Part shown: positions 47,056 through 52,572 of the stretch, piece by piece | Position numbering within the stretch: position 1 is the first letter of the stretch | How the letters are laid out: every line of letters starts with the position of its first letter | From: Candidatus Lustribacter telmatis | Lineage (GTDB): Bacteria; Vulcanimicrobiota; Vulcanimicrobiia; Vulcanimicrobiales; Vulcanimicrobiaceae | Length of the DNA stretch: 64,000 nucleotides | NCBI GenBank assembly: GCA_003164045.1 | Contig: PLRU01000071.1 | Coordinates: 118,383-182,382, forward strand | Direction of reading: 5' to 3' | The notes under the pieces: model-generated | What the model was told of the DNA's origin: nothing | Database searches by the model: none | What the model saw: only the letters and a program-made list of their open reading frames with translations | Translations under genes and position numbers: made by a program

Positions 47056-48089
47056 TCGCACCATATCTGCTCGACACGTGGTACGCGGCTATGTGGTCCG
47101 CCGATCTTCCGGCGGGAGCGCTCGTTCCGCGCACGATCCTCGATGAGCCGCTCGTCTTTTGGCGCACGAGCGGCGGCGAGGTCGCGGTCCTCGAAGATCG
47201 GTGCCCGCATCGCTTCGCTCCCTTGAGTATGGGACGCATACTCGGCGACCATCTGCAATGCGGATATCACGGCCTCGAGTTCGACGTTAACGGCGCGTGT
47301 GTGAACAACCCGCATCCCAATCGCGCCGTGCCGCCGGGAACGTTCGCGCGAACGCATCCGGCGCTAGAACGCCACTCGATCGTTTGGATATGGATGGGCG
47401 ATAGCCAACCCGACACGAGCACACTTCCGGACTACGGGCTGATCGATACGGCGCCGGCCGATCAGGTCAGCAAGCGCGACTACTTGCTCATGGCGGCAAA
47501 CTACGAACTCATCGCCGACAATTTACTCGATCTCAGCCACGCATCGTATTTGCACGCCGGACTGTTGGGCAATGACGCGATGGTCGACACGCGCACGGAC
47601 GTGGAGCGTCAAGGAAACACGCTCTGGGTCTCCCGCTTCACGCCGGACGTCCCGGTACCGCAACTCTACGATCTCATGTTCCGGCAGGACGGACGCAACG
47701 TCGACATTTGGACCCGCATCCGGTGGAACGCACCGGGTTGTCTGTTGAACGACACGGGCGCCTGCGCGCCCAACACCGATCGGAGCACCGGGACCGGTCT
47801 CTACGGCATTCATCTCCTCACGCCGGAAACCGCGACAACGACGCACTATCATTTCTGTGCGGTGCGCCAAAACACGGTGCAGCGAGACCCCGCCGCCGAC
47901 GAACATATCCGTGGCCAGCTCTCCGAACTTCGCCATCGAGCTTTTGAAGAACAAGATCGCGCGATGATCGAGGCGCAACAACGCAACATCTCACGCAGCA
48001 ACGGCGACTTGCGTCCTGCCCCGCTCAGCGTCGACGCGGGCATCGTTCGCTACCACCGTATTATCGACGAGCTGCGATTACCGGCCTAG
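47052..48089 (+). CDS. Rieske non-haem iron oxygenase (VanA-like)
   Basis: A 345-aa oxygenase: Rieske site C51-x-H53 (CPHRFAPLS), C70-xx-H73 (CGYHGLEFD), iron site IADNLLDLSHASYLHAG with Asp160, His163 and His168. It is of the vanillate O-demethylase oxygenase type, a second such enzyme in the operon. A dedicated reductase is not visible. It is the last gene of the operon and overlaps the convergent gene at 48086 by 4 bases. Confidence 0.93.
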   Translation: MIAPYLLDTWYAAMWSADLPAGALVPRTILDEPLVFWRTSGGEVAVLEDRCPHRFAPLSMGRILGDHLQCGYHGLEFDVNGACVNNPHPNRAVPPGTFARTHPALERHSIVWIWMGDSQPDTSTLPDYGLIDTAPADQVSKRDYLLMAANYELIADNLLDLSHASYLHAGLLGNDAMVDTRTDVERQGNTLWVSRFTPDVPVPQLYDLMFRQDGRNVDIWTRIRWNAPGCLLNDTGACAPNTDRSTGTGLYGIHLLTPETATTTHYHFCAVRQNTVQRDPAADEHIRGQLSELRHRAFEEQDRAMIEAQQRNISRSNGDLRPAPLSVDAGIVRYHRIIDELRLPA

Positions 48090-48499
48090 GTCTTTCCGGT
48101 TTTGTAGGCGGCTTGGAAACAGCGCTGGTGATAGTGCGAGCCGTCCACGCCGGTGACGTCGGGCCGCGCATCCCCGCAGAACTTGCACGTATCCGGTGCG
48201 GCCGCAACCAGGCGGCCCGATTGCACCGCTGCGACGAGCGCCGCGACTTCATCGGCGGTGTAAAGGCGTTCGGTTGCGACGGGCTCCTCGTCCGGCTCCG
48301 GGGTGAGGATCGAGTGAATCCCGCCGAAGCCGATCGCCGCGATGACCAAGATGACGCCGATCTTGACCGGCAATTTCATGTCGTGCGCGCTGTAGATCTG
48401 ACTTGCGAAAAAGGTGAGGATCACCGCCGAGGCAAGGCTCACGATGATGCGCACGTAACCCGACGTCCCGCCGCTGCTACGCTTCGCTAGTTCTTGCAT
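48086..48499 (-). CDS. Membrane protein with a C-terminal zinc-ribbon-like site
   Basis: A 137-aa protein with two transmembrane segments (about 17-37 and 45-65) and a soluble C-terminal part carrying CKFCGDARPD and GSHYHQRC. CxxC and a later HxHxxC can form a zinc site. Ribbon proteins of this type often bind partner proteins at the membrane. It is the last gene in the minus-strand run that also holds two paralogous coiled-coil proteins and an acyl-CoA ligase. Unknown function. Confidence 0.72.
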   Translation of the reverse strand: MQELAKRSSGGTSGYVRIIVSLASAVILTFFASQIYSAHDMKLPVKIGVILVIAAIGFGGIHSILTPEPDEEPVATERLYTADEVAALVAAVQSGRLVAAAPDTCKFCGDARPDVTGVDGSHYHQRCFQAAYKTGKT

Positions 48500-49111
48500 C
48501 TATAAGTCGCCGATTCCGTCGGCCGGCTGCTTTTGCAGATCTGCGCGTAGCGCTTTGAGCTTCTGATACGCGACGTTGAGCAGCGGGTCGCGCTGAAGCG
48601 CCGACTGCAGGCCGCGCGGCGATTCCATTTGCCGGATCAGCGCCGCCTCGCGTTCGTCGAGCGCCGTACGGAGATCCGCTTCCATCGTGATCAGCTGATC
48701 GCGGCGCTTCGCGAGCAAATCGCGGATCTCGACGTATTCTTTCGCCGCCCGCGCGGCGAGTTTATAGAAGCGCTCCGAACCATAACCCGCACCGATCTTC
48801 TCGGTGTGCGCGGGCGGTTGAATCCACGTCTTGCCGACGCGATGCGGAAGAATCTGGCCATAAGCGCGCGCGTGTTCGACCGCCGCTTCATGGCGCGCGC
48901 GCACGAGCACGCGCAAGTTGTCGATCTCCACGCGGAGTTTCGCGCGGCGCGCAGCGGCGTGTTCCACGATGCGCGCGACGCCGTCGCCCGTGAGCGTGCG
49001 CACGAAGCGCGTCTTGGCAAAATCGTAGTTCCCCTGGGCCAACATTTCATCGAAGCCGGGCTGGCCCGGCAGCAACTCGCCTGAAGAACCGAACTCATCC
49101 GAACTACTCAC
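48500..49111 (-). CDS. Coiled-coil protein, paralogue of the neighbouring 49104-49715 gene
   Basis: A 203-aa soluble protein, charged and almost fully helical, with heptad-like stretches (EIRDLLAKRRDQLITMEADL). It has the same length as its neighbour and shares segments: RFVRTLTG against RYIRTVTT, and MESPRGLQSALQRDPLLN against LESPTGLEGAFKRDPLLA. They are a tandem duplication. No catalytic motif, no signal peptide. It overlaps the paralogue's stop by 8 bases. Coiled coils could make scaffolds, tethers or partner-binding rods. Not recognised as a family. Confidence 0.75.
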   Translation of the reverse strand: MSSSDEFGSSGELLPGQPGFDEMLAQGNYDFAKTRFVRTLTGDGVARIVEHAAARRAKLRVEIDNLRVLVRARHEAAVEHARAYGQILPHRVGKTWIQPPAHTEKIGAGYGSERFYKLAARAAKEYVEIRDLLAKRRDQLITMEADLRTALDEREAALIRQMESPRGLQSALQRDPLLNVAYQKLKALRADLQKQPADGIGDL

Positions 49112-49715
49112 TAACCGGGGCCTGACTCGCCGGAGCTTCGGCCGGCGTCGACTCGAGTACGGATTCGCGCCGCGCTTCGGCGGCCAGCATGCGCGCGTGC
49201 GCCCGCGCGAGGAGCGGATCGCGCTTGAATGCGCCTTCGAGCCCGGTAGGTGACTCCAACTGCGCGATCAGGTCGCGACCGTGCTGCTCGAGCACCGTAC
49301 GCACTTCGTCGTCGATCTTGTCGAGTTTTTCCTTGCGCTTCTTGATGATGTCGTTGACCTCGTTGAACTCTTCGGCGGCCTTGACCGCGGCTTTGTAGAG
49401 TTTGTCGATCCCGCCGATCATGCGTTCGGCAGGCGAGGGCGGCAGCAGTCCGCCGGCGCTGACGCGGCCCGGCGCCTTCGCGGCGTAGGCGCGCAACGTC
49501 ATTTGACGCGCCTCGAACCGCGAGCGGGCGAGCGCGGTGAGGTTATTGATCTCTTCCTTGAGCGGGTCGCGCCGTTTGGCGACCGTCTCCATCAGCTTCT
49601 TCTCGGTGTCCGTCGTCACGGTGCGAATGTAGCGCGCGCGCGACGCGTGATATTCACGGACCGATGCATCGTAGTCGGGAACGCGTGCGTCGCTGACGTG
49701 CTGATCGGTGCTCAC
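49104..49715 (-). CDS. Coiled-coil protein, paralogue of the 48500-49111 gene
   Basis: A 203-aa protein with the same plan as the previous one. N-terminal SVREYHASRARYIRTVT, a coiled-coil centre (EVNDIIKKRKEKLDKIDDEV), the LESPTGLEGAFKRDPLL signature, and an Ala/Pro-rich C-terminal tail (ESTPAEAPASQAPVSE). It is translated from an ATG that overlaps the stop of the acyl-CoA ligase gene (ATGA). Both paralogues may form a heteromer. Function is not recognised. Confidence 0.75.
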   Translation of the reverse strand: MSTDQHVSDARVPDYDASVREYHASRARYIRTVTTDTEKKLMETVAKRRDPLKEEINNLTALARSRFEARQMTLRAYAAKAPGRVSAGGLLPPSPAERMIGGIDKLYKAAVKAAEEFNEVNDIIKKRKEKLDKIDDEVRTVLEQHGRDLIAQLESPTGLEGAFKRDPLLARAHARMLAAEARRESVLESTPAEAPASQAPVSE

Positions 49716-51217
49716 GGCTTCTCCTCGCTCGCCTTCAAACGTTGCTTTTCGACTTTGCCCATCGCGTTGCGCGGCAGCGCATCGACAATCCGGACGGCCT
49801 TCGGCAGTTTGAAGCTCGCTAACCGGTCGCGCATCGCTGCGACGAACGCATCGCTATCGAACCCGGCGTCGGCCTCGATGAATGCAACCGGGATTTCGCC
49901 GCGCGCGGCGTCGTGAATCCCCACCAGCGCCGCATCCCGCACGCCGGGATACAGCCGCATCTCCGCTTCGACTTCCAGCGGGTACACGTTGAAGCCGCCG
50001 CTGATGATCAGCTCTTTGAGCCGGCCCATCACGACGTAGACGCCGTCAACCGGATCGAAGCGCATCGAATCGCCCGACCGGAACCAGCGGCGGCCGTCGA
50101 AATCGGCAAACGCGTCGGCCATCGCTTCGGGCCGGTCCCAATAGCCGATGCACACGTTCGGGCCGGAGACGAGCAGTTCACCCACCTCGCCCGGCGCGAC
50201 CCGATCGGTCGTCTTCGGTACGACGATCGTGACTTCGACGCCCGGCATCGGCACGCCGACGCTGCCCACGACGCGCGGACCCTCATACCGATTGCCCAGC
50301 GCAAAGCCAAACTCCGTCGACCCGTAACGCTCCAGAATCGAGGCGCCGAACTTTTCTTCGAACGCGCGGTGCACGTCGGCCGGCAACGCTGCCGAACCCG
50401 AAACGAACAGACGCACGTGCTCGAACTTCTGCGGCGGAATTTTCTCGATGAAGCGCACGTACATCGTCGGTACGCCGAAGAACATCGTCACGTCGCCGGA
50501 TTGCAGCAGCTTCGCGACTTCGTTGACGTCGAAGCGTTCGCGAATGAGCGCGTGGGCACCGGCGGCGAGCGTGCCGTTGAGGCCCGCGCAGAGTCCGTGC
50601 ACGTGAAAGAGCGGCAAGGTGATCAACAGAGTGTCGGCGCTCGTCCAGCGCCACGCTTCGTTCAACTGCGCGGCGATCGCGGCGAGGTTGCCGTGCGTGA
50701 TCAGTGCGCCTTTGGCGCGGCCGGTCGTGCCGCTGGTGTAGATCATCACGGCGATGTCGTTGGGCTCGACGCGCGCGTCGTCGTGTTCGGTCGAGAGCGA
50801 TGCATCGGTCGCCCACGCCTCGACGTCGGCCGCGTCAACGAACGGCACGTCCGCCGGAACGTGCGGCCGGGTTTGCGCCGAACCCACGACGAGCCGCGGT
50901 TTTGCGTCGCTCAGAATATTGCCGAGGTCGGCGGCGCGGTAGAGCACGTTCGTCGGCACGGCGATCGCGCCGAGGCGCTGCAGCGCAAGATAGGCCAGCA
51001 CGAAGCCGCGGCGGTTCTCCGAGTAGATCGCCACGCGGTCGCCGGCCACCACGCCCCGGGCCGAAAGCTTGCCCGCTACCCGGGCGGTCTGGCCCCAGAG
51101 TTCCCCATACGTGAGTTCGTCGACCGCGAGGGCATTCGTCCGCTGCGCGGCCACGCGCCGGACGACGTCGATAAACGGTTCGGTCCCGAGCGCTACGGCC
51201 AACGCTGCCGGCCCCAC
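49712..51217 (-). CDS. Acyl-CoA synthetase, MatB-like
   Basis: A 501-aa AMP-forming acyl-CoA ligase from the GTG at 51217; the open frame to 51448 has no family feature beyond it. The ATP loop is YTSGTTGRAKG (160-170). The middle LPLFHVHGLCAGLNGTLAAGAHAL is typical of malonyl-CoA synthetase (MatB). Also seen: ERYGSTEFG, GELLVSGPNVCIGYW, GRLKELIISGGFNVYP and the C-terminal lysine in GKVEKQRL. It activates a carboxylic acid, perhaps malonate or another short diacid, to its CoA thioester. First in the minus-strand unit with the coiled-coil genes. Confidence 0.88.
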   Translation of the reverse strand: MGPAALAVALGTEPFIDVVRRVAAQRTNALAVDELTYGELWGQTARVAGKLSARGVVAGDRVAIYSENRRGFVLAYLALQRLGAIAVPTNVLYRAADLGNILSDAKPRLVVGSAQTRPHVPADVPFVDAADVEAWATDASLSTEHDDARVEPNDIAVMIYTSGTTGRAKGALITHGNLAAIAAQLNEAWRWTSADTLLITLPLFHVHGLCAGLNGTLAAGAHALIRERFDVNEVAKLLQSGDVTMFFGVPTMYVRFIEKIPPQKFEHVRLFVSGSAALPADVHRAFEEKFGASILERYGSTEFGFALGNRYEGPRVVGSVGVPMPGVEVTIVVPKTTDRVAPGEVGELLVSGPNVCIGYWDRPEAMADAFADFDGRRWFRSGDSMRFDPVDGVYVVMGRLKELIISGGFNVYPLEVEAEMRLYPGVRDAALVGIHDAARGEIPVAFIEADAGFDSDAFVAAMRDRLASFKLPKAVRIVDALPRNAMGKVEKQRLKASEEKP

Positions 51218-51267: not shown

Positions 51268-52572
51268 CTAACAGCCCACGAAAGCGAGTTGCGTTTTCGT
51301 CGGGTAGAAGTCGATGGTGAATCCGGGCGGCGGTCCGACCGCCGGGATCGTCACGCTGTTGCCGGCGACGTTCGCTTGAGCGCCGGGGACCTGCAGCCAC
51401 GAGAACGGTCCGCCGCCGCTGCCGTTGGCGTAGATGAATAGACTGCACGTGTTGCTGCTGGGGAAGCTGCTGGTCGTGACCGTAATGGCCGGCGTTTGCG
51501 AAAACGACACGGGCGCGTTCGGGGTGAGGAGCACGTAGAACAGCGGCGTCGCGGCGCTTCCGGTGTAGAACGGGAACGAGCCGGCCGGGCTGATATCGGC
51601 CGCGGTGCTGCCGAGCGCCGCGGTCATGGTGAACGCACCGCTCGTCGTCTCCGCGCCGAACTGGATCGTGACGTGCGCGCTGTAGGTGCCGTAGCCGCCG
51701 GAGGCCGGAACGACCAGGGGCCCCGGCTGCGTCGGCGGGGTCACGCTCGCCGTCGTCGCGGTCGCACCGCTCGAGAAGGTGAAGGCCGGGACCGGCGATG
51801 ACGTGCCGGTCGGCGTAGGCACCGGCGTCGGCGAGGTCGACGGCGTCGCGCTCGGCGTCGGCGTTGGGAACGGTGTGGCCGTCGGCGTCGGGGTCGGCGT
51901 CGGCACCGGCGTGGCCGTCGGCGTCGGGGTCGGTCCCGGGATCGCCAGATCGTAATACTGGAAGAGATACGTGTGGCCGGCCGTGAGCGACGGGCCGGGA
52001 TTGCCCGGGATGGAATTCGAGATCGTCACGGTTTGGCCGGATGCGACTGCGGGACCGAAGGTGGCGATCTTGCTGGCCGGGGTCGCCGTGATGTCATCGA
52101 TTTCGCAGAAAAAGTTGAGGCCGCTGGTCGCCGTCGTGCTCGAGAACGTGAGCACTTCCGATGCGACCACGCCGGCGGGAACGTTCGCCGAGAACGTTGC
52201 CGTCACGTATAAGAACGGCGCGATCCCGGTCGTCGCGGCTGCTGGTTTGCGGACGAGTGCCGATGGCGACGGCGCGTTGGATGGGGCGCTGAAGCTTGCG
52301 AACGCGCTCATCGTCAAGCCCGACGGGGCGCCGGTTCCGACGCCGAAGGCCGGGGTGACAAAGCCGAGGGCTTGCAGCGATACCGTTCCGGCCGTACCGG
52401 GGATTGCGACGAGTTGGACGCCCGAAGGTCCCGGACTCGGTGAATTGCTCGGTTGTACGCTCGGCGCCGAACTCGTGCTCCCGCCGGCACACCCGGCAAT
52501 GGCCGCAGCAGCCAGAAACATCACAACGGGAACAAACCGGCGTTGAAAAAGCACGCGCTGGGCCTTCCGCAA
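51268..52572 (-). CDS. Secreted lipoprotein with a Pro-Thr repeat linker
   Basis: A 434-aa lipoprotein: basic start, hydrophobic segment and lipobox AIAGC with Cys28, so it is anchored by an N-terminal lipid. A beta-rich first domain (about 50-205) is followed by a long PT-rich linker (about 212-260, repeats of PTPTPT-x-TP) and a second beta-rich domain ending FVGC. Linkers of this sort appear in secreted proteins of several soil phyla. No catalytic motif. It is separated from the acyl-CoA ligase by 50 bases. Confidence 0.8.
   Translation of the reverse strand: MRKAQRVLFQRRFVPVVMFLAAAAIAGCAGGSTSSAPSVQPSNSPSPGPSGVQLVAIPGTAGTVSLQALGFVTPAFGVGTGAPSGLTMSAFASFSAPSNAPSPSALVRKPAAATTGIAPFLYVTATFSANVPAGVVASEVLTFSSTTATSGLNFFCEIDDITATPASKIATFGPAVASGQTVTISNSIPGNPGPSLTAGHTYLFQYYDLAIPGPTPTPTATPVPTPTPTPTATPFPTPTPSATPSTSPTPVPTPTGTSSPVPAFTFSSGATATTASVTPPTQPGPLVVPASGGYGTYSAHVTIQFGAETTSGAFTMTAALGSTAADISPAGSFPFYTGSAATPLFYVLLTPNAPVSFSQTPAITVTTSSFPSSNTCSLFIYANGSGGGPFSWLQVPGAQANVAGNSVTIPAVGPPPGFTIDFYPTKTQLAFVGC

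Follow-up and report, generated by a model that had tools for sequence, protein, structure and literature searches.

Why should two paralogous helical proteins and a small protein with hydrophobic segments be encoded directly behind an acyl-CoA ligase, and does their standing together have a functional meaning? The question arises from a window of 64,000 nucleotides of Candidatus Lustribacter telmatis, a member of the Eremiobacterota. The phylum has few cultured members, and a first isolate was reported in 2022 (PMC9758169). The original prediction, made from this stretch of DNA, had described the two proteins, here called A and B, as coiled-coil paralogues that arose by tandem duplication and form a heteromeric rod or scaffold, which is tied to the membrane by a third protein, C, and coupled to a MatB-like ligase. 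We compared the genome from which the window comes (G000; 5.0 Mb, 93.5% complete, 6.8% contamination) with the sole genome listed for the same genus (the congener, G001; 84% complete, 8% contamination) and with a sample of 149 genomes of the phylum. Gene calls in the neighbourhoods were taken from a codon-usage script, not from a curated gene finder. The coordinates of all features are collected in Table 1.

Table 1. Features of the ligase-A-B-C gene set and of the related loci. Plain coordinates are positions in the window; coordinates with a locus prefix are positions in that locus.
Feature	Coordinates	Strand	Remarks
A, 203-aa short member of the hairpin family, GTG start	49104..49715	-	88-89% identical in congener
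B, 203-aa short paralogue of A, GTG start	48500..49111	-	81% identical in congener
C, 137 aa, two hydrophobic segments and C-terminal zinc-finger-like motif	48086..48499	-	64% identical in congener
MatB-like AMP-forming acyl-CoA ligase	49712..51217	-	start by codon-usage script; longest ORF starts at 51448
P/T/S-rich gene upstream of ligase	51268..52521	-	lipoprotein-like start by eye
End of helix 1 and loop of A, residues 77-102, with Y77, P82, P93	49410..49487	-	conservation and model
First hydrophobic segment of C, residues 13-37	48389..48463	-	Kyte-Doolittle 19-residue scan, both genomes
Second hydrophobic segment of C, residues 40-67	48299..48382	-	Kyte-Doolittle 19-residue scan, both genomes
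CxxC-x15-HxxC motif of C, residues 105-127	48119..48187	-	same spacing in three other genomes
Seven longer paralogues in G000	contigs C98, C93, C43, C51, C80, C74, C44 (loci L021-L025, L083, L084)		most stand alone
D (L021:7415-8497) with membrane-fusion/AcrB-type RND efflux pair	L021:7415-13437 and L027:1924-7937
I with cupin gene	L083:4943-6533 and L085:5042-6578

Transcription of the set runs on the minus strand from the P/T/S-rich gene through the ligase, A and B to C, and the coordinates, lengths (203, 203 and 137 aa) and orientation originally given for A, B and C proved correct. In G000, the overlap is 4 bases between the ligase and A and 8 bases between A and B, and C follows B without a gap; in the congener, with starts set by the codon-usage script, the same junctions consist of a 4-base overlap, an 11-base overlap and a 1-base gap. 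The ligase-A-B-C order is identical in the congener, and both genomes that contain A and B (2/2) have C adjoining. The set ends with C, on which a Rieske oxygenase gene (Pfam Rieske and VanA_C) converges from the opposite strand. Synteny between the two genomes is present on the ligase side, with urease genes beyond in both, but absent on the C side. Because the set is found in two congeners with a common order on the ligase side, the kept order says little about function there. Between the two genomes, the NG86 estimates of dN and dS were 0.074 and 1.03 for A, 0.121 and 0.855 for B, 0.261 and 0.928 for C, and 0.066 and 0.789 for the ligase, by which all four genes look constrained, C being the least so. 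The transcription unit may begin with the P/T/S-rich gene, which also precedes the ligase in the congener and matched nothing in Pfam at E-values up to 0.1.

A and B are homologous, with 35% identity over 186 aligned residues (E 6e-35). Their local alignment score of 289 was reached in none of 1000 shuffles (mean 34.8, maximum 69), and none of 1000 shuffles that kept the heptad phase reached it either. The motifs quoted for the pair are present: RDPLL and R(F/Y)(V/I)RT(L/V)T occur in all five short rows and in none of the 14 long rows of the 19-row family alignment, and (L/M)ESPxGL occurs in three of the five short rows (it is missing from A of G001 and from A2) and in no long row. In this alignment, the signatures are marks of the short clade. 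Since A and B contain neither Cys nor a hydrophobic segment, both proteins are probably soluble.

The proposed tandem duplication stands as far as the common origin is concerned, the short forms being one clade, but the pair is not self-contained: G000 has seven further copies of the family, nine in all. The congener likewise has nine copies, and the family comprises ten types, the short A, B and A2 and the long D to J, with 328-445 residues in the long members. Types A, B, D, E, F, G, H and I are common to both genomes; J was seen in G000 only and A2 in G001 only, absences that carry little weight in two incomplete MAGs. G006, which belongs to the same taxonomic family, has one long copy. At E 0.001, 3/149 genomes of the phylum (G000, G001 and G006) matched a profile built from the long members, and at E 0.01 a profile of all 19 rows matched 6/149. 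The three extra genomes were discounted, as their matches covered 48-62 positions at E 0.003-0.007; in one of them, G125, the ligase is present as well, but on a different contig. When B alone was used as query, 3/60 genomes matched, G000 included. A search of genome contigs with B alone that extended beyond the phylum, in a mode that finds close relatives only, gave 53 candidate stretches, and the one relative among them was the congener. Plasmids and phages searched with D gave no match, and none of the 43 candidates obtained from viral contigs with the long profile was confirmed. With the profile run on the genomes of the phylum, the family is so far known from a narrow part of the Eremiobacterota only, and distant relatives may exist outside the phylum.

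A profile built without the short rows matched A at E 1.2e-29 and B at E 8.2e-25, in the N-terminal hairpin region. Types D to H share a C-terminal domain of approximately 130 residues, the ends of I and J are diverged, and A, A2 and B terminate where the C-terminal domain of the long paralogues begins, so that the short forms lack it. A maximum-likelihood tree of the 19 rows unites the five short ones with a support of 98/95 (364 columns) and places D as their nearest type; with the shared region only (224 columns), the support for the short clade was 97/94. In an AU test, the alternative groupings of A and A2 with D (p 0.0255) and of B with D (p 0.0277) came at a cost of 8.85 log units, the groups having been chosen after the tree was seen, and treekit warned that long branches meet at the A-B join. 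The single short clade supports a duplication of A and B from a short ancestor, and the simplest account would be one loss of the C-terminal domain, followed by the duplication that gave rise to A and B.

The AlphaFold2 model of A, calculated from four sequences (mean pLDDT 85.9, pTM 0.62), is a long antiparallel helical hairpin, in which a helix of residues 13-80 is followed by a loop with short strands, a second helix of residues 103-154 and two short helices. For A, the model thereby bears out the rod-like helical shape that had been foreseen. R49, E55, Y77, P82 and P93 are invariant over 15 rows, and three of them (Y77, P82 and P93) are located at the loop; when the divergent types I and J and the G001 copy of G were added, R49 alone was invariant over the resulting 19 rows, with the Y, P and P kept at 90% or more. 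Ten rows (each type except A2 once, plus the G006 copy) gave a mean BLOSUM62 score of 1.24 in the loop, compared with 1.14 both in the first half of helix 1 and at the start of helix 2, and 1.1 in residues 155-188. By this measure, the loop appears only slightly ahead in conservation and is not a clearly dominant conserved site.

Database searches placed neither the family nor C in a described group. No match at cut-off was obtained from Pfam or NCBIfam for A, B, C, D to H, I, J, A2 or the G006 copy, the best Pfam match being that of A2 to YkyA (E 0.0038, 17.4 bits vs a cut-off of 28.8). For eight C-terminal domains out of the 14 long rows (one for each long type plus that of the G006 copy), the best Pfam E-value was 0.026. 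Among PDB sequences, nothing fell below E 0.03: the best values were 0.037 (Nsp1) for all 19 rows, 0.049 for the A/B profile, 0.14 for the long profile, 0.26 for the profile of the C-terminal domain and 1.3 for C. The best PADLOC match of 15 rows had an E-value of 0.0034. The same 15 rows matched PHROGs with E-values down to 9.4e-5 (2 rows), to a family of unknown function, and 3 rows matched phrog_20356, also of unknown function, at E 2.7e-4, in A at residues 65-146 and thus spanning the loop; two tape-measure families were among the 14 PHROGs matches listed. We tentatively read these matches as coiled-coil likeness, the alternative reading being a weak phage link. Foldseek with the model of A returned 0 matches at E up to 0.001. 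In the VIA fold comparison, the best 50 of 902 chains included HlyD, F-BAR, AhlC, Rad50 and others at Z 8.3-9.5; the several F-BAR chains, which represent a membrane-bending helical dimer fold, scored Z 8.4 to 9.3, below the value of approximately 13 that VIA gives for long helices. In these fold comparisons, A showed nothing beyond a likeness to long helices. Word searches of titles and abstract beginnings in the open-access subset found no paper on the hairpin family.

The membrane character attributed to C agrees with its two hydrophobic segments, which are present in both genomes and are likely to be membrane helices. Due to three Lys between the segments in the congener, the topology of C is ambiguous. 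Of the description 'CxxC and HxHxxC', the CxxC and the HxxC are kept in both genomes as C105-x2-C108-x15-H124-x2-C127, but the first His of HxHxxC is replaced by Arg in the congener. Overall, C was modelled poorly (mean pLDDT 58.4), with values of approximately 75-80 for residues 101-130, which form short strands and then a helix. A profile of C matched 16/149 genomes at E 0.1, two of them with full-length C. In three genomes of another genus (G084, G085 and G070), the tail motif alone matched, at E 9e-5 to 6e-4 and with the same spacing. These three genomes gave no match to the A/B family, indicating that the tail is not special to A and B. The corresponding loci (L055, L056 and L057) contain ORFs of 204-216 aa, hydrophobic by eye, with a second Cys-rich motif in addition to the C-like CxxC-x15-HxxC tail. 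The 11 other genomes with partial matches (E 0.002-0.093) were not retained as relatives of C, and five loci in four of them contained no C-like ORF; three of the 11 (G125, G128 and G129) also encode the ligase.

Only A and B, of the ten types, adjoin C. No adjacent gene on the same strand is kept in both genomes for E, F and G, and for H, judging by the gene starts listed, no same-strand neighbour is common to both. A2 (L028 in G001) stands alone, with no same-strand neighbour, so B and C may not be needed for an A-type protein to act. Two long types keep same-strand genes downstream in both genomes: behind D come a membrane-fusion gene (HlyD_D23) and an AcrB-type gene (ACR_tran), the domains having been tested in G000, and behind I comes a cupin gene (Cupin_2) of 180-187 aa. 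The copy in G006 (L032:2176-7475) faces an opposite-strand run with MreB_Mbl and penicillin-binding transpeptidase genes, and the gene between these has a weak MreD match below the cut-off. The original prediction had set the trio against homologues that occur singly and never near the membrane gene. Such isolation does describe the wider family but not A and B, with C adjoining in 2/2 genomes, and the trio sought in other genomes was found for A and B in the congener but not for the family at large.

The ligase contains the Pfam domains AMP-binding and AMP-binding_C. Its best NCBIfam match was malonyl-CoA synthase PRK07514 (NF005702) with 431.8 bits, and because this is below the cut-off of 558 we do not call the enzyme a malonyl-CoA synthase. 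Among solved structures, MatB and MatB chimeras come closest, and the ligase of the window aligns to the MatB malonyl-CoA synthetase (4fuq) over residues 41-507 (phmmer E 2e-96). The resemblance noted earlier is supported by both searches, and 'MatB-like' is a fair label, with malonate as a possible substrate. At E 1e-100, the ligase was detected in 31/149 genomes of the phylum, 29 of which had neither a family match at E 0.001 nor full-length C, the exceptions being G000 and G001. At ten ligase loci outside the genus, drawn from the 29 genomes and read with flanks of at most approximately 1.5 kb, the downstream ORFs varied and no A/B-like gene was seen. As judged from these genomes, the ligase is older than the A-B-C association.

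As a whole, the set is best explained by a helical-hairpin assembly of A and B that is held at the membrane by C, a reading to which we assign a probability of roughly 0.35. A and B would be cytosolic helical-hairpin proteins, duplicated from one short ancestor without the C-terminal domain of approximately 130 residues, and, made from overlapping reading frames, they would assemble with each other via their helices into a heteromer. C, with its two membrane segments, would keep this assembly at the inner membrane. Its zinc-finger-like tail, which may bind zinc, would provide the contact with A and B and would be cytosolic if the N-terminus is inside, whereas the hairpin loop with the kept Y, P and P might bind a further partner. 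An older ligase enzyme would have gained A-B-C as downstream genes, so that a link to the product of the ligase is possible but secondary.

We regard the finding as real and of modest interest; the larger observation is that the hairpin family has expanded privately in this genus. With nine copies per genome and no database match, such a family is a mark of something in which the lineage has invested. A speculative extension, to which we give little credence, is that the approximately ten hairpin types constitute a genus-private, cytoskeleton-like toolkit, in which the C-terminal domain of the long types would act as cargo adaptor and A and B would be a heteromeric core fixed to the inner membrane by C. 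The RND efflux pump and the cupin gene could then be examples of cargo, and the G006 copy lies beside mreB and a penicillin-binding protein gene. Should the paralogues assemble with one another, the family would offer a compact example of how scaffolds diversify in bacteria; otherwise it is still a new protein family with defined members. The short two-gene version, A and B, should be the easiest to express and test.

Since the set is known from two congeners only, it is nearly as likely as a membrane-held A/B assembly that A, B and C settled as bystanders behind an old ligase, and that the link of A and B with C and the ligase is without functional meaning. A and B would then act like the other, mostly stand-alone, paralogues. 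This possibility, itself tentative, fits the solitary position of most family members, the presence of the ligase in 29 further genomes without the set and the differing neighbours at the ten ligase loci read outside the genus, and regional synteny explains part of the conservation. It is less easily reconciled with the gene junctions: in both genomes the four reading frames overlap or abut, whereas synteny is lost on the side of C. The 4-base overlap between ligase and A in both genomes would also be compatible with A and B as scaffold or regulatory partners that hold or localise the ligase, with C bringing the enzyme to the membrane where the acyl-CoA is used. We consider this unlikely: 29 of the 31 genomes with a close relative of the ligase had no family match and no full-length C, indicating that the enzyme does not need A, B and C.

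Among described proteins, those of the zf-RING_7 type (PF02591; HP0958, CT398 and MSMEG_4306) invite comparison with the A/B-C assembly. According to PMC5947703, they combine a hairpin and a CxxC-x18-26-CxxC motif in one chain. Their long antiparallel helical hairpin may be comparable to that predicted for A, and a zinc-type motif is encoded in the same gene set here. The adjoining hairpin and zinc-motif genes, together with the appearance of CT398 (4ilo) and MSMEG_4306 (5y06) among the Foldseek matches to A, could suggest a split version of such a protein, with the hairpin in A and B and the zinc part in C. However, the Foldseek E-values of 0.39 and 0.56 are within the noise of helical proteins and no better than those of unrelated long helices listed, and A and B have neither a zf-RING_7 match, or indeed any Pfam match, nor a C4 zinc ribbon in the same chain. 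In contrast to the zf-RING_7 proteins, the motif is carried by a separate membrane protein and is of the CxxC-x15-HxxC type, not CxxC/CxxC, which makes a split protein very improbable. The second comparison is with the long paralogues D to J. Their N-terminal region is homologous to A and B (A-D 38%, B-D 37% identity) and has the same Y, P and P around the loop, whereas D to H continue into the approximately 130-residue C-terminal domain that is missing from A, B and A2, and the long forms are mostly encoded by single genes.
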